Source of the DNA: Acidobacteriota bacterium
GTDB lineage: Bacteria; Acidobacteriota; Terriglobia; Acidiferrales; UBA7541
NCBI GenBank assembly: GCA_003224525.1
Contig: QHZB01000195.1
Span: 16,082 to 80,081, forward strand
DNA: 64,000 nt
Direction of reading: 5' to 3'
In this document: one piece after another, positions 26,172 to 44,371 of the stretch
Layout: each line of letters begins with the position of its first letter
Position numbering within the stretch: position 1 is the stretch's first letter
Notes under the pieces: generated by a model
What the model was told of the DNA's origin: nothing
The model's input: only the letters and a program-made list of their open reading frames with translations
The model's database searches: none
Position numbers and translations under genes: made by a program

Positions 26172-26260
26172 AGCCTATGATCGCCGAGAACGAAGTTCGC
26201 CACGCTGGAAATTCGCGAGTGAACCGATCCGTTTGTCACGTGTGCGGCTCCATTTCTCTT

Positions 26261-28030
26261 TCATCGGCTCGGTACCTTTGGAAAGTTGCGCGGCACAATT
26301 CCGGTGCCCTCCTTGACGGCGATAATCCGGTCGATTGGCACATTCGTTAGCCGATCCACCTGCCCGCTCGGCCAAGTGATTTCCAGAGACTCGATCTTGG
26401 TGCGTTTCCCCAAACCAAAATGAATCCGGGGATCACTCGCCGACATATAGCTCATGCCGCCCTTTGACTGTTCAACGTGCGCGACCCCTTCGGAGGTTAG
26501 CTTCAGCGAAGAGCCGATCCCATCGCGGTTGGAGCGTGCACCGATCAGCAGGACTTCCAGCCAGTGATTGGCGTTCCCGCCATCGTTGCGCAGAAGCTCC
26601 GGATAGTCCCCGCGATTATTGATGGCGACGTCGATGTCGCCGTCATTGTCGAAATCAGCGGTGGCCAGGCCGCGGCCGGCGATGGGGCGCATGAAATCCG
26701 GACCCAAAGAGTCTGACACTTTTTCGAACTGGCCTTTTCCCAAATTCCTGAACATCAGCAAGAGTTCCTTGTAAGACACTTCGCTGTGATAGAGATGAAT
26801 GTTGTCCAGCATGGCGCCGTTCAATTGCAGGATATCGGGCCAGCCGTCATTGTCATAGTCCAGGAACTTCATGGAGACGCCGCTCAGCAGGATGGCCTTG
26901 TTCCCTATCCCGGAGCGATAGGTGTAGTCATCGAAGGTTCCATCCCGGTTGTTGTGGTAAAGGCGATTCAATTCGAAATCAAGGTGCGTGACGTACACAT
27001 CCTGCCAGCCGTCGCCGTCCACGTCCGCGGCATCGATGCCCATTCCCGCCTCATAGCGGCCGTCCTCGCTGGCCGCCAAACCGGAAACGAAGGAAACATC
27101 CTGAAAGGTGTCGTCATGCTTATTGATGAAAAGAAAATTCGGCCAAGTGTCGTTGGCGATAGCGATGTCCGGCCAGCCGTCGTTATTGAAATCTGCCAGG
27201 ACCACACCCATGCCCTTCGATTCGGGCTTGCCAACACCGGACGCATCGCTGACGTCGGTGAAAGTGCCGTCATGATTGTTGTGGTAGAGCTTGGTCTTCT
27301 GCCCTTTGTAGTTGCCCGGATTGCAGTAAGAACGATAGCCTGGCCGGCGTTCGCCGCACCACAGGTTCGTCTTCGGCGTCCACTCGATGTAATCGGTGAC
27401 GACCAGGTCGAGCCAGCCATCCTTATCGTAGTCAAACCATCCTGCGCTGGTTGACCATCCGCCTTCGTCCGCGACACCGGCCTTGGTGGTGACGTCGGTG
27501 AACGTTCCATCGCTGTTATTGTGATAAAGGATGGCGCGGCCATAGCCGGTCACGTACATATCGGGGTAGCCGTCATTGTCGAAGTCCGCGATGGCAACAC
27601 CCTGGCCGTAATGCCCCTCTCCGCCCACGCCAGCTTTTTCGGTGACGTCGGTAAACGTTCCGTCACCATTATTGTGGTAAAGCGCCGAGCGCAAGGGATG
27701 CGCTGGTTTGTAAATGTCAGTAGCGGCCGATTGGACAAAGTAGAGATCCATCAGGCCGTCCTGGTCATAGTCGATCCAGCCGACGCCGGTGCCCATGGTT
27801 TCGAGGTAATACTTTTCTTCTGTTTGCGTGGCATCCTGACGAAATGTGATTCCGGCCGATTGTCGAACGTCGGTGTAACGGACGGTTATCCGGGAATCCT
27901 GCGCTTTGGGAGTCTGCCGAGCGAGGGTCTTCTGATGAACGGTTATACCAATCACGGTGCTTAACGTCAGGATTGCGCTGCACGCGGCTCTGAGATGGAG
28001 TCCTCTACCCAGGTTCGATTTTTTTTCCAT
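26261..28030 (-). CDS. CRTAC1-family protein (FG-GAP/VCBS repeats + ASPIC/UnbV)
   Basis: DYDQDGLMDLYFVQSA, LYHNNGDGTFTDVTEKAGVGGEG; HWLEVLLIGARSNRDGIGSSLKLTSEG...RIHFGLGKRTKIESLEITWPSGQ. Confidence 0.93.
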   Translation of the reverse strand: MEKKSNLGRGLHLRAACSAILTLSTVIGITVHQKTLARQTPKAQDSRITVRYTDVRQSAGITFRQDATQTEEKYYLETMGTGVGWIDYDQDGLMDLYFVQSAATDIYKPAHPLRSALYHNNGDGTFTDVTEKAGVGGEGHYGQGVAIADFDNDGYPDMYVTGYGRAILYHNNSDGTFTDVTTKAGVADEGGWSTSAGWFDYDKDGWLDLVVTDYIEWTPKTNLWCGERRPGYRSYCNPGNYKGQKTKLYHNNHDGTFTDVSDASGVGKPESKGMGVVLADFNNDGWPDIAIANDTWPNFLFINKHDDTFQDVSFVSGLAASEDGRYEAGMGIDAADVDGDGWQDVYVTHLDFELNRLYHNNRDGTFDDYTYRSGIGNKAILLSGVSMKFLDYDNDGWPDILQLNGAMLDNIHLYHSEVSYKELLLMFRNLGKGQFEKVSDSLGPDFMRPIAGRGLATADFDNDGDIDVAINNRGDYPELLRNDGGNANHWLEVLLIGARSNRDGIGSSLKLTSEGVAHVEQSKGGMSYMSASDPRIHFGLGKRTKIESLEITWPSGQVDRLTNVPIDRIIAVKEGTGIVPRNFPKVPSR

Positions 28031-28037
28031 TCGCCGA

Positions 28038-28499
28038 TTACCGATGTGCGATTGCAGGTAAGAAGCTGATGCGGAAGCACGTATATTGCGCTACTGCGGT
28101 TACCACGAATGCCGTTACCGCCATCGCGGGAGACAGAGAGGACTTGAGTCGAGTGAATATTGCAATGCCGGTCACCGACGCCGCTCCCACGATGATGGTC
28201 ATTGCAATTTCGAAAGGTGAGAAATGTCCGCTAATGATGCTAGAGATACCGAGCACGTATAGCCAAATGAACACCATTAAGGTCAACCAGAATAGAAAAA
28301 GCGGGAGCCCGATCCAGCCAGCCAAACGGGCACGGCGGAGGCCAAACACAATACCTATCCAGAGCGGAAGGGTCTGCACGACGTAGCACAACACTAGGCC
28401 GGCGGGAAAACCCACGCCCGCCACTAGAGAAACAATGATGGCAAAGCAGCAGAGCGCGATTGCAATTGATTCTTTCCCGAGGGGATGTGCTTCGGAACT
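28038..28499 (-). CDS. Hypothetical multi-spanning membrane protein
   Basis: Four to five hydrophobic segments (IAIALCCFAIIVSLVAGVGFPAGLVLCYVV...). Lies in a tight same-strand gene series. Confidence 0.65.
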   Translation of the reverse strand, partial: SSEAHPLGKESIAIALCCFAIIVSLVAGVGFPAGLVLCYVVQTLPLWIGIVFGLRRARLAGWIGLPLFLFWLTLMVFIWLYVLGISSIISGHFSPFEIAMTIIVGAASVTGIAIFTRLKSSLSPAMAVTAFVVTAVAQYTCFRISFLPAIAHR

Positions 28500-28576
28500 C
28501 ATCGAAAATATTTCAGTCGGCCCGCACATTCTAACGCGGGCAATCAAGCTGCTCAACCAGAAGTTTTCTTATCCGC

Positions 28577-31132
28577 TCAGAGTGTGCGGTCAGCAAGCGA
28601 CAGCGCCAGTTGAAGTAACTGCTGCCTGGCAACCATGGGCATGGGTTCACGAAGCGAAGACGGCGCCGCCGGGGCTTTGGCCAGGGCTTCTTCAATTCGA
28701 TGCACATCCAGTCCACCGGCTGCGTTGCTGCCCTTGAAGCGATTCAGCACTTCCCGGGCTTTGGTGATTTCTCCTGTTTGATAATAAAAAGCGCCCAAGG
28801 TGGAATAACTACCGGGCCACTCCGGCAAAAGGTCCACGGCGCGCTCGAGGTTCTGCGCAGCTTGCGGGGTCTTCCCTTCCAGGGCCGAGACGATTCCCAA
28901 TCCCCAGAGGATTTTTCCGGAGCTGGGAATTCGCGCCAGCCCCTTGCGCAGCGTTTCTTCGGCTCCGCTGATGTTATTTTCGCGGAGCTCGACGAGAGTA
29001 AGGGAGAGGTAATATTGGTCATTGTCAGGATTGCGTTTGATGGCTTCACGGAAAATTTCTTCAGCCCGGGCTGTGTCACCAAGATGGGCCTGGATGTCAC
29101 CGAGCAGCGCCAGGAAAGCATCGTCCTGCTGGCCCGTCGCCGAAACTTGCCGCGAAGCTTCGAGCGCTTGGGAATAGAGGCCGCGGCGGAAGTAAGCATC
29201 GGTCAAATCAAATTTCACGTCGTCGGAATCGGGATTGGCGCGCAGGGCTGTCTGGAAATGCTGGATGGCGTCGTCGTACAAACGGAAACGCGCCAGCAGT
29301 ACACCGACGCCGGTCTGGGTGCGGTAGTCGCCCGCGCTGAGCTGGTCAAGTTGCGCGATGACCTTTCGGCCTTCGTCGGGCTTGCCCAGTTTCAGATAAG
29401 CTTCGGCCAGCAGGTAGAGGTCTTGCGGTTGGTCCGGATGTTTCTGGATCTGCTCCGTCAGCTCGGTCAAATCCAGCTGCGTCCGGTCCTGAGGCGAGAG
29501 ATTGGAACGATTATCAAGATAATCGAAAAGATGTTGATAGGGATACGGACCCGCCGAAGCATCTTTGGAGAGAGTCTGAAAGACATTCAAATCCCTCTGT
29601 GCGGCGTTCATTTGATGGAGGCCCCTCTCGACCATGGCAAGTTTGTAGTAGCCTGAAGCGGCATTGCGGCTGACTTTGACGTATCTTCTGAGCAATTGCG
29701 CGGCTTCCTCCAATCTCTTGTTCGTGATTCGTAAATTAGCCAATTCCAACAGCGCTTCGGAAAAATCAGGGTTCGCCCGAAGCGCCCGCTGAAACAGCTC
29801 CTCGGCCCGTGCGTGATTTCCCTGGTGCTCTTCAATATAGCCCATGTTAAAAAGGCAGGAAGCGTTGTGTGGATCTTGCTTGAGACCTTCCTGAAAATAT
29901 TTCCTGGCTTCATCGAACCGCCCCAGATGGCGGTAAGAGAGTCCCAAGAAAGTGTAAGATCGTGCTGAGGGGTCCAATTGGATCAGGTTCTTGAACTCTT
30001 CGATGGCCTTTTCCGCCTTGCCCGACATGAAATAGCTCTCACCCAGCGCGGCGTGGAGATCAGCGCGTTGCGGCGCGATTTTCAAGCCTGATTCGAGGAG
30101 CTGAATGGCATCTTCGAAATAATTCTGGGACATGCTTACCCGGGCCAAGAGAAAAATGATGTCCGTATTCTGAGGGGCCAGCTTGTGAGCACGCACCAGC
30201 AAATCCAGAGCATCTACAGCCCTAGTCTGATCCGCATTGACCTGCGCCAGCAAGTAGAGGGTTTCCGGTGAATCAGGTTTCAGTTTCAGAGCTCGATTCA
30301 GCGCCGGTTCGGCTTTCGTGTATTCGCCGCCGCGAAGATAGGCCTGTCCAAGGTTGAAGAGAATCTCGAAAGTTTCTGGCCGTAGTGCGTTGGCCTTTTC
30401 CAGTTCAAGTTGGGCTGCACGGTACTGCTTCTCAGAAGCCAGCAACACACCCAGAGTGAAATGCAGCTGGACGTCATCCTTATTTTGAGCGGAAAGCTCC
30501 GTTGCCACCTTTAGCCCGTCGGCGGGCCTGCGGGCCTGGAGGCAGGCGCGAATGAGGTTGAATCGCGTTTCGACGTTCGAAGGGCGCACACGCTGAAAGT
30601 GGATGATGGCTTCGGCAGGCCTACCCTTGGCCATCAAGACCAGGCCCAGGTTGTAGTTTCCATCGCGATTCCCGGGGTCGAGCCGCAAGACTGTCCCGAA
30701 CTCTTTCTCCGCGAGGTTGAGCTTTTCCTGGGCAACATATACGTTCCCGAGATTGTTACGAGTTCTGGTTGAGTTTGGTTCGAGCTTCAGCGCATGCTGG
30801 AACGCCTCCAGTGCTGTCGCATAGTCCTTTTGGTCGCTGTAGATAATCCCCAATAAATTGTAACCTTCCACGCTTGAGGGATTCCGTTTGAGCTCTTCCT
30901 CAATTTTCTCTTTGGCCTGATCGACCAAACCTCGGCGAATCAGTTCCTCCGCTTCCCGGAATTGCGGCTGGATCTTCGAAGATTGCTGAGAATTTTTCTT
31001 ACTGGGGACAGATTGCTGCGCTGCAGATACTCTTGGAAATAGGAGAATCAAGGCCAGCGCAAAGATTCCGCGCAACTTCGGCCGGCTGCCCGCGATCCTG
31101 GATGGATGCTGAAATGAAGAGCCGATATTCAT
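28577..31132 (-). CDS. Large secreted TPR protein
   Basis: Signal sequence and ~20 TPR units (VEGYNLLGIIYSDQKDYATALEAFQHALKLEPNSTRTRNNLGNVYVAQEKLNLAEKEF...). Confidence 0.9.
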   Translation of the reverse strand: MNIGSSFQHPSRIAGSRPKLRGIFALALILLFPRVSAAQQSVPSKKNSQQSSKIQPQFREAEELIRRGLVDQAKEKIEEELKRNPSSVEGYNLLGIIYSDQKDYATALEAFQHALKLEPNSTRTRNNLGNVYVAQEKLNLAEKEFGTVLRLDPGNRDGNYNLGLVLMAKGRPAEAIIHFQRVRPSNVETRFNLIRACLQARRPADGLKVATELSAQNKDDVQLHFTLGVLLASEKQYRAAQLELEKANALRPETFEILFNLGQAYLRGGEYTKAEPALNRALKLKPDSPETLYLLAQVNADQTRAVDALDLLVRAHKLAPQNTDIIFLLARVSMSQNYFEDAIQLLESGLKIAPQRADLHAALGESYFMSGKAEKAIEEFKNLIQLDPSARSYTFLGLSYRHLGRFDEARKYFQEGLKQDPHNASCLFNMGYIEEHQGNHARAEELFQRALRANPDFSEALLELANLRITNKRLEEAAQLLRRYVKVSRNAASGYYKLAMVERGLHQMNAAQRDLNVFQTLSKDASAGPYPYQHLFDYLDNRSNLSPQDRTQLDLTELTEQIQKHPDQPQDLYLLAEAYLKLGKPDEGRKVIAQLDQLSAGDYRTQTGVGVLLARFRLYDDAIQHFQTALRANPDSDDVKFDLTDAYFRRGLYSQALEASRQVSATGQQDDAFLALLGDIQAHLGDTARAEEIFREAIKRNPDNDQYYLSLTLVELRENNISGAEETLRKGLARIPSSGKILWGLGIVSALEGKTPQAAQNLERAVDLLPEWPGSYSTLGAFYYQTGEITKAREVLNRFKGSNAAGGLDVHRIEEALAKAPAAPSSLREPMPMVARQQLLQLALSLADRTL

Positions 31133-31177
31133 CCCCTGTCTGCCTCCGCGTGCGCTCTCATCGCAGGTCTCGCAAAG

Positions 31178-34100
31178 TCACTGTAGCATTTCCAGTTCTT
31201 TCTGGGCCACCGCGTGCTGCGGTTGTTTGTGCAGCAGTGCCAGCAACACCTCTTTGGCTTTTTGCTTTTCCTCCAAAATCACGTACAGACGGGCCAGATT
31301 GAGATAGGCCTGGTCAAAGTTCGGGGCAACGCGGATGCAGGTCTTGAATCTCTCCTCTGCGTCGGAGTTTCGCCGCTCACGCACAAAGAGCACACCCAGG
31401 TTGTTGAGCGCGTCGGGATAGTCAGGGCGCAAATTCACCGCTCTTTCCAAATAGTGCGCGGCCTGTTCGAGCTTCTCCTGCCGGGCGTAGAGCATGCCGA
31501 GGCTGTAGTTGACCTCCGGATCATCCGGTGTAATTTCAAGCGCACGACCCAACAGTTTTTTCGCTTCTTCAAAGTCTCCCTGTCGCCGGTAGATGTTTCC
31601 GAGGTTCGCGAGCGCGATGGCATAGCTCGGCCTTAAGAGCAGAGACTGTTTGAAATTGCGAACGGCCTGGTCCGTCTGACCTTCCTGGGCGGCCACCATT
31701 CCAAGATTGTTCCACGCTTCAGGATAGTTCGGACGGAGCTTCACCGCCTGCTCGAGGTATTGGCGGGCGTCCTGGGAAGCGTTTCTCCGGAGATAGAGCG
31801 TTCCCAGATTGTAATAGGCCTCGGGATCTTGCGGCTTGGCGGCGATAACCTGTTTGAAGGACGCCGCCGCCTGCTCCAGATAGCCGCGCTGAAACATCGC
31901 CACCCCGTAAGTGAAGTCGTTCCGTTGGAACACGTCCTGGTAGAGCACTCCGCCCAAAGGAAGCGCTCTCCGTATCTGCTCGGCTTGCGTACCCGGGACC
32001 GATCTCAGGTCTTCCACCAGCCGTTCGGGATGCACCGGCCCCTGGTAAACCTTTATGATCATGCCGTCCTTATCGAGGAGGAGAGAAACCGGAATGGGCA
32101 GATCCCGGCGACGGTCGAACAGGTAACGATAAATGATGTTGTAGATGCCGGCCACATCCTGGGAGGCGAGAAGGTTGGGGAAGGAGAGCCCTTCTTTGGC
32201 AGCGAATGATCTCACAGTTTGTGCATCGCCAGGGTCATCGACGTTTATGCCAAGGATCCGAAGGCCGCCGGCGGTGAGAGTTACCTGGTATTGCTGAAGA
32301 AGTCGCAATTGTTTCCGGCAGGACGGCAAAGCAGTCGCCCAAAAGCCGAGAAGCAATGCGCTGCCTCGGAACGACTGCAAATCCCGCATCTTGCCAGCGA
32401 GGTCGGGCAAGGAAAACTCCGGCGCGCTCAGAGGCTCGATAAGCCATGTCTCCACAGACGAGGGCAAGAGTTCTGGCTTCAGAGGTTCGCCCGCCCGCGC
32501 ATAAGAAGGAGGTGAAGCCGCAAATGGCTTGGCCAGAAAATCTTCGGAGCCTTCCTGAAGTTCGATTCGGTGGTTCAGAGGTAAGTGCCCGAAGACCTGC
32601 GTTAGGCCGCTGGGCCAGCGGATCGAAGCGTGGACCGTTCCTTGGGCTTTCCCAACACCAAAGAAAAGTTCCTTGCTGTGCTGCGATAGAAATCCGGAAC
32701 CGGCCTGTAGATATTTCGTCTGGCGATGTGCTTCGGCTTCGACGGTTATCGCGGCCCCGATCGCGTCGCGATTACTTTTCCGCCCGCGCAAGCGGAATGC
32801 GATCGAATTGCCAAGATCCTTCATCGCGTTGCGCAAAATCCGGAGTTGCGGCGCGTTTCGATTTTTCAGGACGACTTCCAATCGCCCGTCCTGGTCCAGG
32901 TCGGCGAGTGCAAACGAGCGGCCGTCCTCAAGAAAGTCCAATCCAACTGTGCCAGAGACTTCCGAGAACGTGCCGTCGTGATTATTCAGGTAGAAAACAT
33001 TTCTTTCGCGGCCGCTCCAGGAGTTGTCCGACCGGATCAGCTCATTGATGGCGTTCCATCCCTGCTCATACTTCAACAACGGAGTTGCATTCTGGGGCGA
33101 TTTCGCCACCAGTTGTCGCCAAAAGAAGCTCGAAAGGTCGCCCTTCTCGCTCCCTGAAGTGTCGGGCCCAGAAATATAGCCGTTCGCAACGTAAAGGTCC
33201 GAGTAGCCGTCGTGGTCGAAATCCCAGGCGTCCGAGCACCAGGCCCAGCGACCCATCTCTACCCCCGCTTGGCTGCTTACGTTTTGAAACTTGCCATTTC
33301 CCTGATTTCGATACAGCGAATTGCCACGCGCGTGATGACGATAAAGCGCGCGGATATTTTCAGGATCTTTTTCATGAAAGCGATCTTCATCTGAAACTCG
33401 AAGTCCAGCGGCGGACCACATAGCAGCACTGTAGATATCCAGTCTTCCGTCGTTGTCGAAATCGAACCAGCAGGCGCTCATTCCCGCGCCAACCTCCTCG
33501 ACGCCCACTTCGGTAGAGACGACGGTAAATTTTCCGTTGCCATTGTTGCGGTAGAGATTGTTTCGCCCAAAGTCGTTGGCCACATAAAGGTTCGGGGAAC
33601 CGTCAGAGTTGTAGTCGCCCCAGGCGCACGCAAAGCTGTAACGGTCGTTATCCACGTTCAGTCCCGCCGTCTCAGTTCGATCCTGGAAGGTTCCGTTCCC
33701 TTCGTTGTGAAGCAGAAAGTTCGGCGGGCCATTGCGCGCGTCAAAATAAGGAGTGGGATAGTGATATTGATCGAGGCCCACATAATAGCTGTAGAGGCAA
33801 AAATAAATGTCCAGAAGTCCATCGCCATCATAGTCAGCGATGGCAGCGTGCGTGAAAGTTCCCTGGGGAGGCCGTAGAAAGTTGAAGGCATCGCGTTTGA
33901 GTAGGAACTTTCCGTTCCCTTGGTTCAAGAAGAGCAGCGGGCCGCTGCCGCAAACCACCAGGAGGTCCTGAAGCCCCTTATTTTCGAAATCCGCGAACAG
34001 AGCGCAAGCCGTGCCGTCCAGCACGCCCACTCCGGACTCTTCAGTCACATCTTCGAATGTCCCATCACCGCGATTGCGATAGAGCCGGTTGGGAAGTCCC

Positions 34101-34981
34101 GGAGGTTGGCAGACATATATGTCATCCAGTCCATCGTTGTCGAAATCTCCCGCCGCCAAGCCATTGTTGCCGTAAACGTCGATCCCGCACGCCCCGTCGA
34201 GAACCGTGCGCCAATAATCGACTCCGTGAAGCAACTGATTCTTGTACGATTCCGTTTGGCCTAGAGCCTGGGAAGTAATGTCGATGAAAACCGGCTCGCG
34301 AGCCCGGCTGAGAGTTTCCTCCGCCGCCGCCCATCGGAGAACTCGCCATGCGTTTGATTCATCGCACGCCCACTGAGTCAGCCAATGTCCGATACGCTCC
34401 TCGCGCCCATTGTCCGTCCGCTTGCCGACAAAATCATACCGGATGTCGATGTGGACTGTCGGCGGAGAGCCTGAGGTTTCCTCAATCCCCACGATTTCGA
34501 ATTCAGCCGTTTCCACCCGCGAGATTGGAGTCAGGTAGGTTTTGATCTCCTGAAGAAATCGCTCGCGGCCCGATACCACATTGGTCGAAAATTGCCTTCG
34601 AATGACCTCGATGCCATTCCCCGAACGGACCGTGTTTTCTTGGGTTGGAACCAGCGGAGTGACTTCGATCGATGGGTCCAGGAATTTCGCCAATACGGCA
34701 AGAGCGGGCGGCGTTGCCTTAAGAGCTTGGGTCCATTCGTTGAGAAGCCGCACGATTTCAAATGCGTACTTCTCCGCGATGTACTCATCCGCGCCGGGAG
34801 CAACGAGCCGAAGAACATCATCAAGCGGAGACTTCGCGGGATAGTGGGGCGTTAGACGAAAATCAGCAAAGGGGAAAGTGGAGGTCCCATCCCCGGTGGT
34901 CTCTGGGAGTATCGACGGAAAGGGCGACGCATGAAGAGGAGCCCGAAGAAAAAGCAGAGGCGCCCACCGCATCCTTCTCAA
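31178..34981 (-). CDS. CRTAC1 (VCBS + ASPIC/UnbV) - redoxin - TPR fusion protein, 1267 aa
   Basis: VCBS units (AGDFDNDGLDDIYVCQ...), ASPIC/UnbV (RGRKSNRDAIGAAITVEAEAHRQTKYLQAGSGFLSQHSKELFFGVG), redoxin (FSLPDLAGKMRDLQSFRGSALLLGFWATALPSCRKQL), then several TPRs. Confidence 0.92.
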   Translation of the reverse strand: MRRMRWAPLLFLRAPLHASPFPSILPETTGDGTSTFPFADFRLTPHYPAKSPLDDVLRLVAPGADEYIAEKYAFEIVRLLNEWTQALKATPPALAVLAKFLDPSIEVTPLVPTQENTVRSGNGIEVIRRQFSTNVVSGRERFLQEIKTYLTPISRVETAEFEIVGIEETSGSPPTVHIDIRYDFVGKRTDNGREERIGHWLTQWACDESNAWRVLRWAAAEETLSRAREPVFIDITSQALGQTESYKNQLLHGVDYWRTVLDGACGIDVYGNNGLAAGDFDNDGLDDIYVCQPPGLPNRLYRNRGDGTFEDVTEESGVGVLDGTACALFADFENKGLQDLLVVCGSGPLLFLNQGNGKFLLKRDAFNFLRPPQGTFTHAAIADYDGDGLLDIYFCLYSYYVGLDQYHYPTPYFDARNGPPNFLLHNEGNGTFQDRTETAGLNVDNDRYSFACAWGDYNSDGSPNLYVANDFGRNNLYRNNGNGKFTVVSTEVGVEEVGAGMSACWFDFDNDGRLDIYSAAMWSAAGLRVSDEDRFHEKDPENIRALYRHHARGNSLYRNQGNGKFQNVSSQAGVEMGRWAWCSDAWDFDHDGYSDLYVANGYISGPDTSGSEKGDLSSFFWRQLVAKSPQNATPLLKYEQGWNAINELIRSDNSWSGRERNVFYLNNHDGTFSEVSGTVGLDFLEDGRSFALADLDQDGRLEVVLKNRNAPQLRILRNAMKDLGNSIAFRLRGRKSNRDAIGAAITVEAEAHRQTKYLQAGSGFLSQHSKELFFGVGKAQGTVHASIRWPSGLTQVFGHLPLNHRIELQEGSEDFLAKPFAASPPSYARAGEPLKPELLPSSVETWLIEPLSAPEFSLPDLAGKMRDLQSFRGSALLLGFWATALPSCRKQLRLLQQYQVTLTAGGLRILGINVDDPGDAQTVRSFAAKEGLSFPNLLASQDVAGIYNIIYRYLFDRRRDLPIPVSLLLDKDGMIIKVYQGPVHPERLVEDLRSVPGTQAEQIRRALPLGGVLYQDVFQRNDFTYGVAMFQRGYLEQAAASFKQVIAAKPQDPEAYYNLGTLYLRRNASQDARQYLEQAVKLRPNYPEAWNNLGMVAAQEGQTDQAVRNFKQSLLLRPSYAIALANLGNIYRRQGDFEEAKKLLGRALEITPDDPEVNYSLGMLYARQEKLEQAAHYLERAVNLRPDYPDALNNLGVLFVRERRNSDAEERFKTCIRVAPNFDQAYLNLARLYVILEEKQKAKEVLLALLHKQPQHAVAQKELEMLQ

Positions 34982-35097: not shown

Positions 35098-36111
35098 TTA
35101 AGGCATTTGTTCAGAGGGAGCGGGTCCCGAGGAATCTCCCAAAATCAGTTCGGCGGGAATCTGATATTCCCTGCCCTGAGGATTCGGTGAGCGAGAGAGT
35201 TCATGAAGGGCGTCGGCCGCCATCTGGCCCAGCATGTCTCGGTGCACGTCCACAGTGGTGAGCGAGGGATTGCTATATTCGGCCAGGCGCGTGTTGTCGA
35301 ATCCCGTAACGGAAACATCCTGCGGGACACGGCAGCCGGCTTTCAATAAACCCTTGATGACGCCTACGGCAGTGAGATCGTTGACGGCCACAACCGCGGT
35401 GGGCCTGGGAGAAAGCTTTGCGATGGCCAAACCGGCCGCCAAGCCACCTTCGAAGCGCAAGTCCCCGCGCAGTATCGGTCCCGGCTCGAGTCCCAATTCC
35501 AGCATGCACTTCTCGTACGCTTCTAGCCGGGCGTTGTTTGATTTGAGCCTGGGTCTCCCTGCGATGAAGGCGATTCGCCGATGTCCATTCTTATAGAGGT
35601 ATTTGACGATTTGCTCGACTCCAGAGAAATAGTCAATTCTCAGGTTGCTCATATAGCCCCGAACGGGCGCGAGGTCGAGGAAAGTCACGGCAATCCTTCT
35701 TCGGGCGAGTTCGTGGATCAATCGCAAAGTGATTTCGGAGGTCATCACCGCAACGCCGCGGACGTTGTGCTCCATCATTCGCTCGGCGGCCTCCCGCGTC
35801 CTCCGCGGATTATAGTTGGTATCGCTCAGAATGGCGTCATAACCCAGCTGCCGGGCGCGGACTTCAAAACTCTTGATCACTTCCGGGAAGAACGGGTTTT
35901 CGATGTCGGACACGATGATTCCAAGTGTGCGACTGTCGCGCGAAGCAAGGTGCCGCGCATGAACGTTCGGGAAGTATCCGAGACGCTTGACGGTCGAGAG
36001 CACCAGCAGGTGCGTGCGCCGGCCAACTTTGCCCGTCTTGTTTAAGACGTTCGAGACGGTGGCGGTGGAAACACCTGCAGCTTTCGCGACGTCACGAATG
36101 GTTAGACCCAT
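35098..36111 (-). CDS. LacI-family transcriptional regulator
   Basis: HTH TIRDVAKAAGVSTATVSNVLNKTGKVGRRTHLLVLSTVKRLGYFPN and periplasmic-binding-like effector domain (IGIIVSDIENPFFPEV-type, TGFDNTRLAEYSNPSLTTVDV). Confidence 0.96.
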   Translation of the reverse strand: MGLTIRDVAKAAGVSTATVSNVLNKTGKVGRRTHLLVLSTVKRLGYFPNVHARHLASRDSRTLGIIVSDIENPFFPEVIKSFEVRARQLGYDAILSDTNYNPRRTREAAERMMEHNVRGVAVMTSEITLRLIHELARRRIAVTFLDLAPVRGYMSNLRIDYFSGVEQIVKYLYKNGHRRIAFIAGRPRLKSNNARLEAYEKCMLELGLEPGPILRGDLRFEGGLAAGLAIAKLSPRPTAVVAVNDLTAVGVIKGLLKAGCRVPQDVSVTGFDNTRLAEYSNPSLTTVDVHRDMLGQMAADALHELSRSPNPQGREYQIPAELILGDSSGPAPSEQMP

Positions 36112-36206
36112 AGTTCGATTACTCAGCCCTTCGCGGGCGTTTCTGGTCTGTCTTCGCACTTCTCGAGCATGCCCGCGACACGCGAAGTATAGATGAAAAA
36201 AACTGC

Positions 36207-36235
36207 TTGACAAGATACAAGGGACGGTGTAATAC
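36207..36235 (+). promoter_or_regulatory. Sigma70-type promoter TTGACA-N17-TAATAC
   Basis: Exact -35 TTGACA at 36207-36212, 17-nt spacer, TAATAC at 36230-36235, upstream of the TonB-type receptor gene. Confidence 0.75.
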
Positions 36236-36247
36236 CTCGCACACAGG

Positions 36248-36259
36248 TTAAGCGTTTAA
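36248..36259. promoter_or_regulatory. Candidate LacI-family operator TTAAGCGTTTAA
   Basis: 12-bp near-palindrome (one mismatched pair) with the AAnCGnTT core typical of LacI-family sites, near the expected +1 of the 36207-36235 promoter and beside the lacI-type gene. Confidence 0.6.
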
Positions 36260-36529
36260 GTGGTTTGGGGGCCCGATTCGGATCGCGGTTGCATCCATTC
36301 TGTGGCTCAGGGGTCTCAAGTAAAAAACGTTGGTGCCGTGAAGCGCAATGCGGTTTTGCTTCGCGAGTTAGGTCAGGCGCTCAATCAGGCCACTGACCGC
36401 AAAAACTGTATGCGCAGGGCTTGGCGAGCGGGTTTTTGGTTCCTTTGCAATGGTCGAGGGGATGGCCTGAATCACAGACCTTGCGCGGCTTGCTCAGTAT
36501 TGGTGCAGAGCGCCTTAGGAGGATCGGTT

Positions 36530-39500
36530 ATGAATCGAAAGCCTATCTCGACTTGGATCCTGCGGGCATCCTTGGAGATGACTGCCGTAGTGTTGTTTAT
36601 ATTCTTGAGCGCGCAGCGTCTCCACGCCCAAGTTGACGCCGGTACCATCCTGGGGACCGTCGCGGACACCTCGGGGGCGCCGATCAACGGCGCCAAAGTT
36701 ACGCTGACGAATGAAGGCACGAGCGCCTCGCTCTCGACCATCACCGGACCGGATGGTTCGTACAAGTTCACGCCGGTCAGAATCGGGAGTTACAAGCTCA
36801 CCGCATCCTTCCAGGGATTCCAGACCACCACGCAAACGAATGTCGCGGTCAACGTGGGTGCGGATGTGGTGATCAATTTCTCGCTCAAGCCGGGCGAAGT
36901 GACACAGATCGTCGAAGTATCCGCAAGCACTCCTGTCCTCGAAACCCAAAGTGGTTCCGTCGGCCAAGTGGTAGACACGCGCAGCGTCAATGATCTTCCC
37001 CTAAACGGGCGGAATTTCACATTCCTGGCCCAGCTCGCCGCGGGCGTGAACACTCCTCAGGCCGACACGCGTGGCAATGCCGCCACCGGCGCCTTCGCTG
37101 CCAATGGCCTCCGGCCAGCGCAGAACAATTATTTGCTCGATGGTATTGACAACAATTCGGACACCGTGGACTTCTTGAACGGTACGAACTTTGTCGTTCT
37201 TCCCCCGGTCGATGCGATTCAAGAATTCAAGGTTCAGACCACGGGCTTCAGCGCGCAGTTCGGCCGTTCCGGGGCTGCCATTCTCAATGCCACCATCAAA
37301 TCTGGTACCAACGAGTTGCATGGCACCCTCTGGGAGTTTCTCCGGAACGACAAATTGGATGCCGCGGACTTCTTTGAAAACGCGAATGGCGTCAAGAAGG
37401 GTGAATATCGCCAGAACCAATTCGGACTTTCGGCCGGCGGACCTGTCAGAATCCCGCACCTGTTTGATGGCCGCAACAAAGTGTTCTTCTTCGGCGACTA
37501 CGAAGGTCTGCGCAGGATTCAGGGGACAGTTCACCAGGGATCCGTACCCAGCCTCGCCGAGCGGCAGAGTGGATACACCGATTTCTCGGACCTGATTCTC
37601 GCTCAAGCGTCGCGCCCTGCAAGGCCCGACGCCTTGGGTCGCAAGATCCCCGTCGGGACGATTCTGGACCCCGCCACAACCCGAGCGGTCCCCGGTGGGT
37701 TTGTCCGCGATCCTTTCTTCACCCCAAGCGCCGCTTGCCCCGCCAATACGACTGACTTTTCAGGTGCAAACATCGCTGCCTGCAAACTGAACCAGATTCC
37801 AGCCGGACGTTTGGATGCGAACGCCATCAAGCTTTTGAATCTCTATCCGAACCCAACCAACAACGCCGCCTCCGCGCTTCTCTCTAATTTCGCGGATTCT
37901 CCGGCCTTGAGGGAACACCGCAACGCCTTTGACGCCAGGCTGGACATCAATTTTAGCCAAAAGGACACGCTCTTCTTCCGGTTCAGCTACGTGGATGATC
38001 CAAATTTGATTCCCGGTATTTTCGGAGGCATCCCCGATGGCGGCGGCTTCCAGGAGGGCAGTCAGACCGCGAACGCTCAGCAGAGCGCACTGGGCTGGAC
38101 CCATACGATTTCTCCGACCCTGATTAACGAAGCTCGTGCGGGTTTGAGCTACCTTCACACCACGCGCGTTTCGCCCGCAGCCAATGATCTCAGCAACCTT
38201 CCTCTCACCAATGGCGGCGTCATGGGCATACCCCAACTGTCGGAAAATGGCGGACTTCCCGCCTTCGGAGTCAACGGTCTGGCAACGCTGGGCAGTAATG
38301 CCTTCCTGCCTTCGGATGAAGTCAGTTCCACGTTCCAGGTTACAGATGATGTCACCAAAATCTACAGCAAGCATACCTTCAAAATGGGTTTCGAGTTTCA
38401 GCACGTCAAGTTCTCGACGCTGCAGCCGCCCTGGTCACGCGGACAATTCAACTTCGACGGCGTCTATACGGATATCCCCAATGTGGGAGGGGGCAACACG
38501 GGCCGCGCACAAATGTTGTTGACTCCGATCGCATCAACTGTGCTGGGTGGAGTTGATTACGTCGGCGGCCCCAACGAAGTATTCGTCTCCAACATCTCCT
38601 TGACCGATAACGGAAAGAACTACTACGGCACTTACATCAACGATGACTGGAAGATTACTCCCAAGCTGACCCTCAACCTGGGTGTGCGTTGGGACTTCTT
38701 CGGGCTGGTTCTGGAGCACCATGGGAACCAAGCCAACTTCATCCCGTCCGGCGGTCCCCTCAACGGTCCGACTTACTTAATGCCAGGGGGTAAGAACTCC
38801 TGCAACAACACTTTCGTCTCGGTAAGCTTCACTACTTTGCTTGCTGCGGACGGCATCAAGTGCCTTGCCACGAATGCTTACGGAAGCGGGCTTGGTAATT
38901 CCCAGAAGACGAATTTTGCGCCGCGTTTCGGATTTGCCTACCAGGTTAACCCCAAGCTCGTGGCCCGCGGCGGCTTTGGCATTTTTTACAACGGCTTTGA
39001 GAACCGCGGTTTTTCACCCAACATCGGGGAAAACTATCCTTTTCAGTTTAATTTCCATTTCAACAAACCTGACGAAACTCACCCCATCAACAACTTTGCA
39101 GGCTGCGCCACTGCAACACCCGCCGGAGGCCCAACCATCGCGACGGGCTTCAGTTGTACACCGCTTAGCCCGCTTGTGGTCAACGCCAGTGGGTTGGAGT
39201 TGCGCGGAATCCAATTTAATTACCTCACTCCCTACTCCATGGGTGGCAATTTGACCGTCCAGTATCAACTTACTCCCTCAATGTCCGTCCAGGCTGGTTA
39301 CGTGACATCGCTGGCACGTCATTTGGAGTCGTTCCCGGGCGCTAACCGCGTCACCCAAATCTTGGATCGAACCTTGAGTTCTTCCAATTTCAAGCCCTTT
39401 AAGGATTTCGGGGAAGGTTCGAGTTATGCGGCGACGGAGGGGAGCAGTGCCTACCACGCCCTTCAGACCAAGGTTGAAAAGCAATTTAGTGGCGGGTTGA

Positions 39501-40297
39501 ATTTTCTGGCTACTTACACGTGGTCCAAGACGCGATCGGACGCTGGCGACTTGCTCAACGGAGGTAGCCTGCGGGGCTACCGTGCTCCGTACGTTCCCGG
39601 ATTCGGAATCCAGGGTGATTACGGCTTGGCTTCCTTCGATATCCGCAATGTCTTCCACTTCAGCGGGGGTTACGAACTTCCCTTCGGCAAGAACAAGCGC
39701 TTCATGTCACAGGCCAGCGGCGTGACGAACAAGGTGGTTGGAGGCTGGAGCGTCAACTGGATCGCCACTCTTCAGGGTGGCCAGCCCATTACCCTCCCTT
39801 GCCCTTCGGACACGACCTCGGGAACGGGGTGCTATGCCCTCCTCGTTAAAGGGCAGGACCCGAAACTTGGACTGTACACCGACACCGCTCACGGGAGATT
39901 GAACTGGATTGGGAACCCGGCGGCATTTGCCCAGCCTTGCGTCTTGGGTGCCGGCGGGGTCGCCACCGCTTCTCCGACAGGATGCGTTCCTCTGACGGGC
40001 CTTGCCGCCTTGGGTGGCCCCCCTGGGCAGATACCAGGACCGGGATTCCACAGGCTGGACTTTTCGATCTTCAAGGACATTCCGTTCAACGAGCGCGTCC
40101 GTCTGCAATTCCGTGCGGAAATGTTCAACATTCTCAACCACCCGAATTTCAACTCTCCCGGATTCGGCGGCAACGGTGTTGTCGCTATCTCCGACTCGAA
40201 CCATTTCAACAGTTCGACCTTCGGCGAAATCGGTTCAACTCGTGACGCTCCTAACGATCCGAGACAGATCCAATTCGCTCTGAAGCTTTACTATTAG
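36530..40297 (+). CDS. TonB-dependent receptor-like protein with N-terminal CarboxypepD_reg-like domain
   Basis: AGTILGTVADTSGAPINGAKVTLTNEGTSASLSTITGPDGSYKFTPVRIGSYKLTA; VVDTRSVNDLPLNGRNFTFLAQLAAGV; ends FALKLYY. AGGAGG upstream of MNRKPIS. Confidence 0.94.
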   Translation: MNRKPISTWILRASLEMTAVVLFIFLSAQRLHAQVDAGTILGTVADTSGAPINGAKVTLTNEGTSASLSTITGPDGSYKFTPVRIGSYKLTASFQGFQTTTQTNVAVNVGADVVINFSLKPGEVTQIVEVSASTPVLETQSGSVGQVVDTRSVNDLPLNGRNFTFLAQLAAGVNTPQADTRGNAATGAFAANGLRPAQNNYLLDGIDNNSDTVDFLNGTNFVVLPPVDAIQEFKVQTTGFSAQFGRSGAAILNATIKSGTNELHGTLWEFLRNDKLDAADFFENANGVKKGEYRQNQFGLSAGGPVRIPHLFDGRNKVFFFGDYEGLRRIQGTVHQGSVPSLAERQSGYTDFSDLILAQASRPARPDALGRKIPVGTILDPATTRAVPGGFVRDPFFTPSAACPANTTDFSGANIAACKLNQIPAGRLDANAIKLLNLYPNPTNNAASALLSNFADSPALREHRNAFDARLDINFSQKDTLFFRFSYVDDPNLIPGIFGGIPDGGGFQEGSQTANAQQSALGWTHTISPTLINEARAGLSYLHTTRVSPAANDLSNLPLTNGGVMGIPQLSENGGLPAFGVNGLATLGSNAFLPSDEVSSTFQVTDDVTKIYSKHTFKMGFEFQHVKFSTLQPPWSRGQFNFDGVYTDIPNVGGGNTGRAQMLLTPIASTVLGGVDYVGGPNEVFVSNISLTDNGKNYYGTYINDDWKITPKLTLNLGVRWDFFGLVLEHHGNQANFIPSGGPLNGPTYLMPGGKNSCNNTFVSVSFTTLLAADGIKCLATNAYGSGLGNSQKTNFAPRFGFAYQVNPKLVARGGFGIFYNGFENRGFSPNIGENYPFQFNFHFNKPDETHPINNFAGCATATPAGGPTIATGFSCTPLSPLVVNASGLELRGIQFNYLTPYSMGGNLTVQYQLTPSMSVQAGYVTSLARHLESFPGANRVTQILDRTLSSSNFKPFKDFGEGSSYAATEGSSAYHALQTKVEKQFSGGLNFLATYTWSKTRSDAGDLLNGGSLRGYRAPYVPGFGIQGDYGLASFDIRNVFHFSGGYELPFGKNKRFMSQASGVTNKVVGGWSVNWIATLQGGQPITLPCPSDTTSGTGCYALLVKGQDPKLGLYTDTAHGRLNWIGNPAAFAQPCVLGAGGVATASPTGCVPLTGLAALGGPPGQIPGPGFHRLDFSIFKDIPFNERVRLQFRAEMFNILNHPNFNSPGFGGNGVVAISDSNHFNSSTFGEIGSTRDAPNDPRQIQFALKLYY

Positions 40298-40315
40298 GCC
40301 CAAGTGACACCCCGC

Positions 40316-40355
40316 AAAGGGCGCCCCAACCACCGGGTCGGGGCGCCCTTTGTTC
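40316..40355 (+). terminator. Intrinsic terminator after the TonB-type receptor gene
   Basis: AAAGGGCGCCCC-N12-GGGGCGCCCTTT, perfect 12-bp stem, then TGTT, 18 bp after the stop. Confidence 0.75.
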
Positions 40356-40423
40356 TCACTCTGGCTTTCTCTGAATCCCCTACCCCCGCCGGCCACGGCG
40401 CGGTGGTAATCTGCAATATCGTG

Positions 40424-41836
40424 ATGACGAGAAACCTGTCGATTTGGTCTGTTTTCGCGGCTCTTCTGGCGTGCCTGGCAGCGGCCGCTGCCGGCCCCCA
40501 GCAAAGCCAGGATTTGGATCGCGAGTTCAAGGCGGCCGTCGCTCAATATGACTCTGGCCGGTATGCGGAAGCCGCCACGCAACTGGAGAACTTAGTGCGC
40601 GAAGCTCCGGAAAGTTTTGAAGTCCGTGAACTCCTGGGGTTGGTCTATTCCGCGCAATCGCAGGACGCCAGAGCCACCCAACACTTACAGAAGGCGGTCC
40701 TCCTCAAGCCGAACTCGACGCCTGCCAGAACGAACCTCGCCGCCAATCTGGCCCGCCTGGGAAAGTTCGATCTCGCCGCCGAGCAATTCAAGAAAGCCGT
40801 CGAGCTTGAGCCGCGGAGCTTTGATACCAACCACAACCTGGGTGAATCCTACGTTCGCGCTGGGAAAGTCGCCGAGGCCGCTCCGTTCCTCGAAAAGGCT
40901 CAGCAAATCGATCCTGCTTCCTACGATAACGGCTACGACTTGTCCCTGGCTTACATTCAAACCGGCCGGCTCGCCGACGCCCGGCAACTGCTCCAGCATC
41001 TCCTGAAGCGAAAAAACACTGCGGAATTGCACAACTTGCTGGGAGAAGTGGAAGAGAAAGACGGCAAATTCGTGCCTGCCGCAAATGAATACGAAATCGC
41101 CGCGCACATGGATCCCAGCGAGGGCAACCTGTTCGACTGGGGAAGTGAGCTCCTTCTCCACCGCACGCTCGGACCCGCCGTCGAAGTCTTTCAGCAAGCT
41201 TCCGATCGTTATCCCGCATCGCAGCGCATTATGATCGGCCTAGGGATGGCTCTCTACGCGCGCGGTAACTATGACGACGCGGTCAAATCCTTGCTGAGGG
41301 CCGCCGATCTGAATCCCTCCGACCCCGGCTGCTATCTTTTTCTGTCCAAAGCCTACGACAGTTCCCCAAGCCAGGCTGCGGAAGTCATCGAGCGTTTCCG
41401 CCGTTTCGCGGAACTTCAGCCGCGCAATGCGCGGGCCCTCTACTACTACGCGATGAGTTTGTGGAAGGGCAAGCGGGCGCAAGATCCTGGCCTGGATCTC
41501 CATCAAATCGAATCGCTGCTGAAGAATTCGCTCGCGCTCGATCCCAAGCTCGCGGAAGTCCACCTGCAGTTGGGCAATCTCTACTCCGACCAGAACAAAT
41601 ATACCGAGGCCGTCCCGGAGTATGGACGCGCGCTTGAACTCAATCCCGATCTCGCCGACGCTCACTATCGCCTGGGCCAAGCGTACGTTCGAACCGGCGA
41701 AAAAGACCGCGCCCAGGAGCAGTTCCAGGTTTATCAACGAATCCGCGAACAGCACTTGGCCGATCTCGACAAACAAAGAGCGGAAATTCGGCAATTTGTT
41801 TATTCAGCGAAGGATTCCCCGTCCGCGAAACCGTGA
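40424..41836 (+). CDS. Secreted TPR protein, paralogous to the C-terminal part of the 22859-24400 product
   Basis: Signal peptide; TPRs; shared motif DPSE-N-F-WG-ELLLHR-PAVEVF. Confidence 0.88.
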   Translation: MTRNLSIWSVFAALLACLAAAAAGPQQSQDLDREFKAAVAQYDSGRYAEAATQLENLVREAPESFEVRELLGLVYSAQSQDARATQHLQKAVLLKPNSTPARTNLAANLARLGKFDLAAEQFKKAVELEPRSFDTNHNLGESYVRAGKVAEAAPFLEKAQQIDPASYDNGYDLSLAYIQTGRLADARQLLQHLLKRKNTAELHNLLGEVEEKDGKFVPAANEYEIAAHMDPSEGNLFDWGSELLLHRTLGPAVEVFQQASDRYPASQRIMIGLGMALYARGNYDDAVKSLLRAADLNPSDPGCYLFLSKAYDSSPSQAAEVIERFRRFAELQPRNARALYYYAMSLWKGKRAQDPGLDLHQIESLLKNSLALDPKLAEVHLQLGNLYSDQNKYTEAVPEYGRALELNPDLADAHYRLGQAYVRTGEKDRAQEQFQVYQRIREQHLADLDKQRAEIRQFVYSAKDSPSAKP

Positions 41837-41951: not shown

Positions 41952-43160
41952 ATGAGTTCCCACTGTTCACTGCAGACCGCCAAGGACCGGGCTCGCCTGG
42001 CCGCCACGAGAGCATCCGCTCCCCAAGAACTCGCACGGCAACTCGCCTGCAGCCGCCGCGAATTTTTGCGTAGAGCCGCGGGGGTGGCGCTGGGCAGTTC
42101 CCTGCTGCCCTCCAGCCTGATCGCTCGAGCGGGTATCTCTACCAATAAGCGGAAGGTAGTAGTCATCACCTTCGGCGGCGGCGCGCGGGACCAGGAAACG
42201 TTCGCCCCTGAAGGGCAGGAAAACATCCCGCATCTGATACGCGAACTCATCCCGCAGTCAACCTTCTTCACGCAAGTGGTGAATCGCGGAATCCTGGGCC
42301 ACTACGTGGCAACCGCAAGCCTGGCAACCGGCGTCTATGAAACGATCAACAACTTTGCTTCCCTTCCCCCGGAACACCCCACAGTGTTTGAGTACTTCCG
42401 CAAGGACTTGAAGCGTCCCGCCTCCGACGCGTGGGTCGTTGCTCCCAGCAACGGGTTCAATCGCATTGGAGAAAGCAGCCACCGTTCCTACGGTCCAGGC
42501 TTGGGAGCAAGAGTGATTCTGCCAAAGCATCTCTTGACGGCGGCAACTTCCGGCGGCGGCACGGACTACGAACATTTGCTGCGTGACAACTATGAAACGC
42601 CGTTCTACACCCCGGAACTCGGCGGCGGCGAATTTGCATTGCAGCAATTGGGAATGATGCTGAAACTCTCGGTCGATGACTTCAAGACCCACGCGCGGAC
42701 GTTGTCGAGCCCCGACGAGCTCTCGGTGTATATCGTGCGCCAGTTGATGCGCCAACAGGCGCCCAGCCTCCTGTGGATCACCATGCACGATATCGATATC
42801 GCCCACGCCGGAGCCTTTTCCCTCTACGTTGACGGTATTCGGCGCACCGACCGCCTCTGCGCGGACATCTGGAAAACCATCCAGAGCGAGCCGGAATACG
42901 CCGGTAAGACGACTCTCTTTATTCTGCCGGACTTTGGCCGCGACTCGGACGACGATTCCGGTGGCAACGGATTCCAGCATCATCGCACCGGCGATGCGCC
43001 CTCCCGCACCACCTGGATGATGGCGCTGGGCGCCGGCGTGCGCGAGGGAGTGGTTTTCGACCGCCCGATGGAATCGACCGATCTCGTGCCAACCCTCGGC
43101 TCGATGCTGGGATTTTCTCCCGCGCTCGCACAGGGCAAGCCGATACCGGAGCTCTTGTAG
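41952..43160 (+). CDS. Tat-exported alkaline-phosphatase-superfamily-like protein
   Basis: Tat signal CSRREFLRRAAGVALGSSLL; VVVITFGGGARDQETFAPEGQENIPHL, TLFILPDFGRDSDDDSGGNGFQHHRTGD; DUF1501/sulfatase-like overall layout. Confidence 0.65.
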   Translation: MSSHCSLQTAKDRARLAATRASAPQELARQLACSRREFLRRAAGVALGSSLLPSSLIARAGISTNKRKVVVITFGGGARDQETFAPEGQENIPHLIRELIPQSTFFTQVVNRGILGHYVATASLATGVYETINNFASLPPEHPTVFEYFRKDLKRPASDAWVVAPSNGFNRIGESSHRSYGPGLGARVILPKHLLTAATSGGGTDYEHLLRDNYETPFYTPELGGGEFALQQLGMMLKLSVDDFKTHARTLSSPDELSVYIVRQLMRQQAPSLLWITMHDIDIAHAGAFSLYVDGIRRTDRLCADIWKTIQSEPEYAGKTTLFILPDFGRDSDDDSGGNGFQHHRTGDAPSRTTWMMALGAGVREGVVFDRPMESTDLVPTLGSMLGFSPALAQGKPIPELL

Positions 43161-43165
43161 ATTCT

Positions 43166-44371
43166 ATGCTCCCAGCCGACCTCAAACCGGAGCAGTTCAA
43201 TGGCTATCCGCCGGAAGCAAGAAAACTGGTCACCGGCCACGTCGCCGCGCTGCAGCAGCTGCCACTGAGCTTCTTGCCGAGCCTATTGCGAGAGGTTATT
43301 GAATACGATTTCAAATTCCCCGCCGAGCGCCGGGCGCTGGAAAACGAACTTGCGAATCTGAAGTCTCTTTCTGCGGAACAGATAAAGGACTGGTTTCAAG
43401 GATTCGCGCAAATCCTTCTTTCCTCCCAGCTCGAACATTCTGATTGGGTCAATGCGCCCGGCCAGTTCGTGGAACAACTGTCGTCATACCTTTGGACTAC
43501 CCACCAACTGGATGCCTTTCGGACCGCGGCGCTTGCCTACGCCGATCGTTTGCGGGCTGTTGCGCCGCCGGAACTGCCTCCGGCGCGGCGTCTCGGAATC
43601 ACCGTCATCGGCCAGGGAGTTGCCACACATGACGAGCCCCTCTTTCGCAAACTCCGTGCGCATGGCGCGTATTTCAGCGGCGTCAAGCCGGAGAACGGGC
43701 TGGAACTTCTTCTGAATCTGGTAGCCGCTCGAGCCAAGGCGCATCCCGTTCCCTATGGCCACTGGTACATCGATGGCGGGCAAGCAGCCCCTTACGACCC
43801 CGTGCTTACGTGCGTCTCCTATCACGCCCTGGAATCAGTGCGCGCGGCTTTGTCAGGCAAAATTCGCGCCGAAATCGAGCGGCCCGGGATGGGACCGGAG
43901 GCGCTGCGCACGATTCTCGCGCAGATGCGTCCCGCGGATCTCGGTCTGGGCAAGGCCGGCGAAGCAGTGCTGGATCGCTTTCAGGTCAAGCTGCTGACCG
44001 AAGGCTCCGGTACGCAGGTTTTCAGCACCACCTTCGCCCAATGGGCGGCGCGCGAAGCCCTGCGGCGAGCCCAGCCGCTCACCTTGCTAGTCCGCTTCGC
44101 TCCGCGCCAAAGGCAGAAGCCGATGAACGAAATGCTCTCCGCGAGCCATGACGTTGCTGAACTTGATCCCCTCGGCTCCCTGATCGATGCGGACATGGGG
44201 GCTTATTACAACTGGCTGAACCTGCAACGGCTCCCAGGAGCCGAGCAATCTTCGTTCCTCGTCTGGTTCGAAGGTCACCACGAAGCGATTGCCATCGGAC
44301 CTTCCTTGCCGCGCGGCACCGAATCCAATGCTGCCGCCGGGTTGGACCAGTTATTGGCCTGGGCAAGCTAG
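43166..44371 (+). CDS. Conserved-looking hypothetical protein (401 aa, no family recognised)
   Basis: ORF starts 6 bp after the stop of 41952-43160; coherent soluble composition; no signal peptide. Confidence 0.75.
   Translation: MLPADLKPEQFNGYPPEARKLVTGHVAALQQLPLSFLPSLLREVIEYDFKFPAERRALENELANLKSLSAEQIKDWFQGFAQILLSSQLEHSDWVNAPGQFVEQLSSYLWTTHQLDAFRTAALAYADRLRAVAPPELPPARRLGITVIGQGVATHDEPLFRKLRAHGAYFSGVKPENGLELLLNLVAARAKAHPVPYGHWYIDGGQAAPYDPVLTCVSYHALESVRAALSGKIRAEIERPGMGPEALRTILAQMRPADLGLGKAGEAVLDRFQVKLLTEGSGTQVFSTTFAQWAAREALRRAQPLTLLVRFAPRQRQKPMNEMLSASHDVAELDPLGSLIDADMGAYYNWLNLQRLPGAEQSSFLVWFEGHHEAIAIGPSLPRGTESNAAAGLDQLLAWAS

Follow-up and report, generated by a model that had tools for sequence, protein, structure and literature searches.

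Between a LacI-family repressor gene and a TonB-dependent-receptor-type gene, the window (the whole analysed stretch of 64,000 nt, from a soil acidobacterium) carries a palindrome, O1, which is highly likely to serve the neighbouring LacI-family protein as its main operator and to keep the receptor promoter repressed until a sugar releases the repressor. This palindrome is very probably the repressor's on/off switch for the receptor, since it is kept at orthologous gene pairs and precedes galactose-metabolism genes in some relatives. The anatomy of the site, its conservation, and its recurrence at related genes are read directly from the sequence, and from them we infer binding, repression, and the inducer.

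The repressor gene (35098..36111, minus strand, start codon at 36111) encodes a protein of 337 aa with a helix-turn-helix (HTH; VSTATVSNVLNK) and a Peripla_BP_3 effector domain. Both Pfam matches are above cut-off (LacI, PF00356, 1.1e-14; Peripla_BP_3, PF13377, 9.1e-40) and place it in the LacI/GalR family; its closest solved structures are RbsR, CcpA, and PurR. The presumed regulated gene (36530..40297, plus strand) encodes an outer membrane protein of the TonB-dependent receptor type with CarboxypepD_reg (2e-21), Plug, and OMP_b-brl_4 (1.7e-213) domains, and it starts at ATG 36530 with an AGGAGG Shine-Dalgarno sequence just upstream. Next in the same direction are a gene for a TPR protein (40304..41836, plus strand) and two further genes encoding 402 and 401 aa (41952..44371, plus strand), all of which keep their synteny in orthologous loci. 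The 402- and 401-aa proteins have no Pfam match above cut-off and are strongly conserved, mostly with 70–90% identity in relatives. Downstream of lacI lie conserved genes (24414..34981, minus strand) for an FG-GAP/TPR protein, a TPR protein, a small membrane-like protein, and two FG-GAP/UnbV_ASPIC proteins, which are possibly co-transcribed with lacI. Across orthologs, lacI and the FG-GAP/TPR/ASPIC genes form a syntenic block on the left, found in most loci, and the receptor, TPR, and two unnamed-family genes form one on the right.

The predicted receptor promoter, of the sigma-70 kind, comprises a conserved −35 element, TTGACA (36207–36212, plus strand), which matches the consensus at 6/6 positions, a 17-nt spacer, and a putative −10 element, TAATAC (36230–36235, plus strand). 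A TG dinucleotide just 5′ of the latter (36228–36229, plus strand) is kept in 15/15 genus divergons. The candidate operator O1 (GTTAAGCGTTTAAG, 36247–36260), recognised by its conservation in divergons and by genus and outgroup scans, has the core TTAAGCGTTTAA (36248–36259), which follows TAATAC after a gap of 12 nt. Direct reading confirmed this series of elements and its placement between the lacI-type and receptor genes, as given in the initial annotation. Its description of the promoter as near-consensus applies to the −35 but not to the −10 element: TAATAC matches TATAAT at 3/6 positions, the hexamer is not conserved, and the receptor promoter is absent from the promoter scanner's list, which contains only the lacI promoter on the opposite strand. 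The arms of TTAAGCGTTTAA are complementary at 5/6 positions, the exception being a G/T pair next to the central CG, and the centre of O1 lies at about +11 relative to the predicted receptor start. As an even palindrome with a central CG that adjoins a lacI gene, O1 has the form of a LacI-family operator. The LacI-family regulons in RegPrecise (Ravcheev et al. 2014, PMC4052901) have even palindromes with a central CG, are mostly local sugar regulons, and are frequently autoregulated; O1 fits this general rule for the palindrome. At about 276 bp, the distance between O1 and the receptor start codon exceeds that of most sites in that collection, which is 30–140 bp (PMC4052901).

Conservation provides the main evidence for an operator. 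With at most one mismatch, GTTAAGCGNTTAA(G/C) is present in 34/34 lacI/receptor intergenic regions of Acidobacteriota, 17 of which have an exact copy; these divergons belong to orthologs whose lacI identity can be as low as 64%. All retain the motif even though the median identity of the aligned intergenic regions is only 42%. It occurs in 0.12% of dinucleotide-shuffled regions; permuted patterns were found in a mean of 0.05 of the 34. Same-genus LacI orthologs (78–94% identity) have a divergent receptor gene, and the palindrome is found in every available intergenic region. The last base was left free in the motif only after the genus members had been viewed, so it is the more distant orthologs, and not these members, that provide an independent test. 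Further Acidobacteriota were drawn from a named genome collection and carry labels such as gp1, Sulfotelmatobacter, and Terriglobia, among others; two of its records, both matching same-genus contigs, bear the label Candidatus Acidiferrum typicum. In the genus alignment, the two 14-mers with the highest conservation are O1 (36248) and a block at the −35 element (36200). Conservation of the palindrome upstream of orthologous receptors, which had been proposed as a check, extends to every ortholog for which a divergent region was available. Nearly all of the 34 regions have TTGACA in the receptor direction, and a TG usually lies shortly before the weak −10 element. The distance from the −10 element to the start of the operator is 6–15 bp in most regions and 34–48 bp in others, and in a few the two abut; relatives thus differ in their blocking geometry.

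Genome-wide, exact copies of the motif are rare and are concentrated at this gene pair. The 6.47-Mb genome of the window has a single exact TTAARCGYTTAA, namely TTAAGCGTTTAA, and GTTAAGCGNTTAAG likewise occurs once in it. Fourteen GTTAAGCGNTTAAG sites were found in 36 same-genus genomes, 13 at the divergon and one before galK-galT, and 14 GTTAAGCGNTTAA sites in 18 further ortholog-carrying genomes, 12 at the divergon, one before galK, and one before a GH97 gene. This gives 28 exact sites in 54 genomes, 25 at the divergon and three elsewhere. The 13 genus divergon sites include one beside an internally truncated lacI (G006) and one in a divergon split over two contigs (G019). In the truncated copy (G006:C1:178481; L076/L117/L220), lacI residues 1–168 are joined to about 310–334 and a break occurs near residue 45; this natural loss of the repressor has left the operator intact and the receptor start in place. 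One-mismatch sites were not counted towards the regulon, because the majority of the 12 relaxed sites in the window's genome are intragenic or precede unrelated genes; in relatives, too, this is true of most one-mismatch sites. Matching relaxed to two mismatches is uninformative, as about two sites are expected in the shuffled window. Other loci totalling 284 kb contained no site with up to one mismatch.

These scans bear on whether the palindrome might be the operator of a different LacI paralogue, with the adjacent LacI regulating something else, which we consider very improbable. About a dozen other LacI paralogues were detected in the genome, some with related HTH sequences, and related LacI proteins with a similar HTH (VSTATVS...) are found, together with CpG-centred palindromes such as CGTAAGCGCTTACG, near other receptors; moreover, GH97 sites of the O1 type exist in genomes where no ortholog of the adjacent LacI was found. 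Against this, the exact motif tracks the adjacent LacI: 13/14 genus sites are beside its gene, and genomes without the gene have no exact genus motif, except the one with the truncated copy. The closest paralogue in the same genome, a second LacI with 94% identity at C131, is again found near a near-identical motif. It is encoded last in a receptor-TPR-TPR-lacI block, the receptor of which has TTAAGCGCTTAG and GCAAGCGCTTAG upstream, and the C131 DNA outside lacI is not similar to the window. Together with the divergon conservation, this paralogue supports the initial proposal of a LacI operator near +1.

A more distant group of LacI proteins (about 46% identity) has CGTAAGCGCTTACG or variants of it near another receptor gene (L053, L055, L056, L059, and L060, and also L052 and L054), so that the genus appears to have a second module of LacI, operator, and receptor. 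The recognition helix of this group (VSTATVSHVINK) suggested that an N-to-H change alters the operator; this covariation was rejected because orthologs with 64–69% identity also have H yet keep TTAAnCGCTTAA.

The lacI gene has its own promoter, TTGTCA-16-TATACT (36186..36213, minus strand), which has 10/12 consensus matches and is conserved across the genus. It stands back-to-back with the receptor promoter, and the two −35 boxes have five bases in common; this layout with a common −35 is genus-wide, and the lacI promoter is the better of the two by consensus. The initial annotation identified the receptor promoter and its palindrome and left out this second promoter, the sites that relatives have at galactose genes, and a possible further operator at the −35. 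The strength of the opposite-strand promoter, together with the frequency of autoregulation in the family (72% of LacI-TFs, PMC4052901), would suit a LacI confined to autoregulation, or one that activates, with O1 serving the lacI promoter rather than receptor repression. We judge this very improbable: in the receptor direction O1 comes after the −10, and it is located about 33 bp upstream of the lacI −35, as would suit a block on the receptor promoter; at C131 the motif precedes the receptor although lacI is about 7 kb away; and the extra sites are found before galK and GH97 genes rather than before lacI.

Further putative operators flank O1. A possible second operator, O2 (AAAACTGCTTGA, 36199..36210; family form AAnYGCTTGAC), overlaps the −35 boxes, has its centre 49 bp upstream of that of O1, and falls within the conserved 14-mer there. 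In the 15 genus divergons, its position has a central CG in five and TG in ten. The conserved AAnYGCTTGAC resembles a half-degenerate second operator, which remains a weak suggestion because it overlaps both promoters. The GGATCGCGGTTGCA region (36277..36292) is a degenerate remnant of a third site, O3, and aligns with GGTTAAGCGGTTTACA in relatives; the third site lies 28–58 bp downstream in several relatives and is intact in L045, L047, and L048, while the window keeps only the remnant. Three relatives (L039:2874, L040:783, and L042:2879), unlike the window, have another CpG-centred palindrome, TGAAAGCGCTTGCA or variants of it, about 55 bp ahead of the receptor start codon.

The palindrome is at the beginning of the predicted receptor mRNA leader (288 nt, 36242–36529), which has moderately conserved stretches, GTTTGGGG and GTTGGTGCCGTG. 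This location, and the fair conservation of the flanking GTTTGGGG, would be compatible with conservation on other grounds, such as a role in a 5′ leader RNA element or in the promoter itself, a reading we find barely credible. The leader region has no Rfam match, and the RNA element was dropped as a candidate; the motif also recurs at unrelated genes (galK, GH97) and is kept in relatives at differing distances to the −10 element. An operator of the adjacent LacI remains the preferred reading.

The sites outside the divergon point to the likely inducer. The three exact ones precede galK-galT (G030), galK (by about 15 bp; G092), and a GH97 gene (by about 60 bp; G098), and a one-mismatch site, GTTAAGCGCGTAAC, is located just before galK-galT in G035. 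The best match of the GH97 protein tested from the genus is the retaining alpha-galactosidase 3A24 (E 2e-168), and its KVDFM nucleophile motif is kept. In seven genus genomes, GTTAAGCGCTTTAC precedes GH97; it is found about 50–100 bp before GH97 alpha-galactosidase-type genes at L138–L141, L158, L159, L161–L164, and L167. Two of these genomes (G007 and G001) yielded no LacI ortholog. In the window's own genome, galK has no operator and the central CG is missing from the GH97 site (GTTAAGCTCTTTAC), which is why GH97 was not retained as a firm regulon member there; the galactose assignment thus rests on the relatives. From the sites before galK(T) and GH97 and the alpha-galactosidase match of GH97, we propose with moderate confidence that the inducer is galactose or an alpha-galactoside. 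Whether a single LacI regulon joins the receptor/TPR locus, galK-galT, and the GH97 alpha-galactosidase, with up to three operators around back-to-back promoters with one common −35 and perhaps also including the FG-GAP/ASPIC genes, we regard as evenly balanced.

In the proposed mechanism, a LacI dimer bound to O1 would block RNA polymerase at the receptor promoter when no inducer is present. An inducer, for which galactose or an alpha-galactoside is the most likely candidate, would free O1. As the inducer would derive from the imported sugar, the receptor operon would be induced by its own substrate. The weaker second site at the common −35 may let the same LacI restrain its own gene.

In the lac system of Escherichia coli, the main operator is centred at about +11, a secondary site lies elsewhere, and the repressor gene is adjacent; the acidobacterial locus is similar in all three respects, although its second site is only a possible one. 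The lac operator O1 has an odd-length centre and its LacI has a C-terminal tetramerisation tail, whereas the acidobacterial O1 is an even palindrome and the 337-aa LacI is PurR/CcpA-sized and lacks such a tail. Moreover, the 49-bp spacing between O1 and O2 does not suggest a phased loop.

By analogy, the locus most likely joins a known class of LacI-controlled sugar TonB-dependent receptors, as in Caulobacter and Xanthomonas. In Caulobacter crescentus, the LacI-type repressor SucR is encoded beside the TonB-dependent receptor gene sucA and represses its promoter, Psuc-sucA, which is induced by sugar (PMC11897816). The SuxR protein of Xanthomonas campestris is a LacI/GalR-type repressor of the sugar TonB-dependent receptor gene suxA that is autoregulated, substrate-induced, and part of a carbohydrate utilisation locus (PMC1790865). 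The acidobacterial locus has the same layout, a repressor gene adjoining a TonB-dependent receptor gene with a candidate operator at the promoter, whose operator role we deduce from conservation; for SucR-sucA, the likeness is in the position of the repressor gene beside the receptor gene and in the proposed repression of the receptor promoter. Both known systems differ in belonging to Proteobacteria and responding to sucrose. SucR is reported to be constitutively expressed (PMC11897816), and at the suxA locus there are also an amylosucrase and an inner-membrane transporter, neither of which is seen beside the acidobacterial gene pair. The main text of PMC4052901 makes no mention of Acidobacteria or TonB, and our literature search found no paper joining LacI, TonB-dependent receptors, and Acidobacteriota, or the LacI family, an operator, and galactose in this phylum.

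The mechanism itself is textbook, and Acidobacteriota are abundant soil bacteria in which such switches have hardly been mapped. The mapped candidate operator provides a motif for finding other targets of the repressor, and thereby a testable substrate, galactose or alpha-galactosides, for a ligand-orphan receptor. If true, the regulon reading would link a defined sugar to one of the CarboxypepD_reg/OMP_b-brl_4 receptors, which form a large and poorly characterised family.
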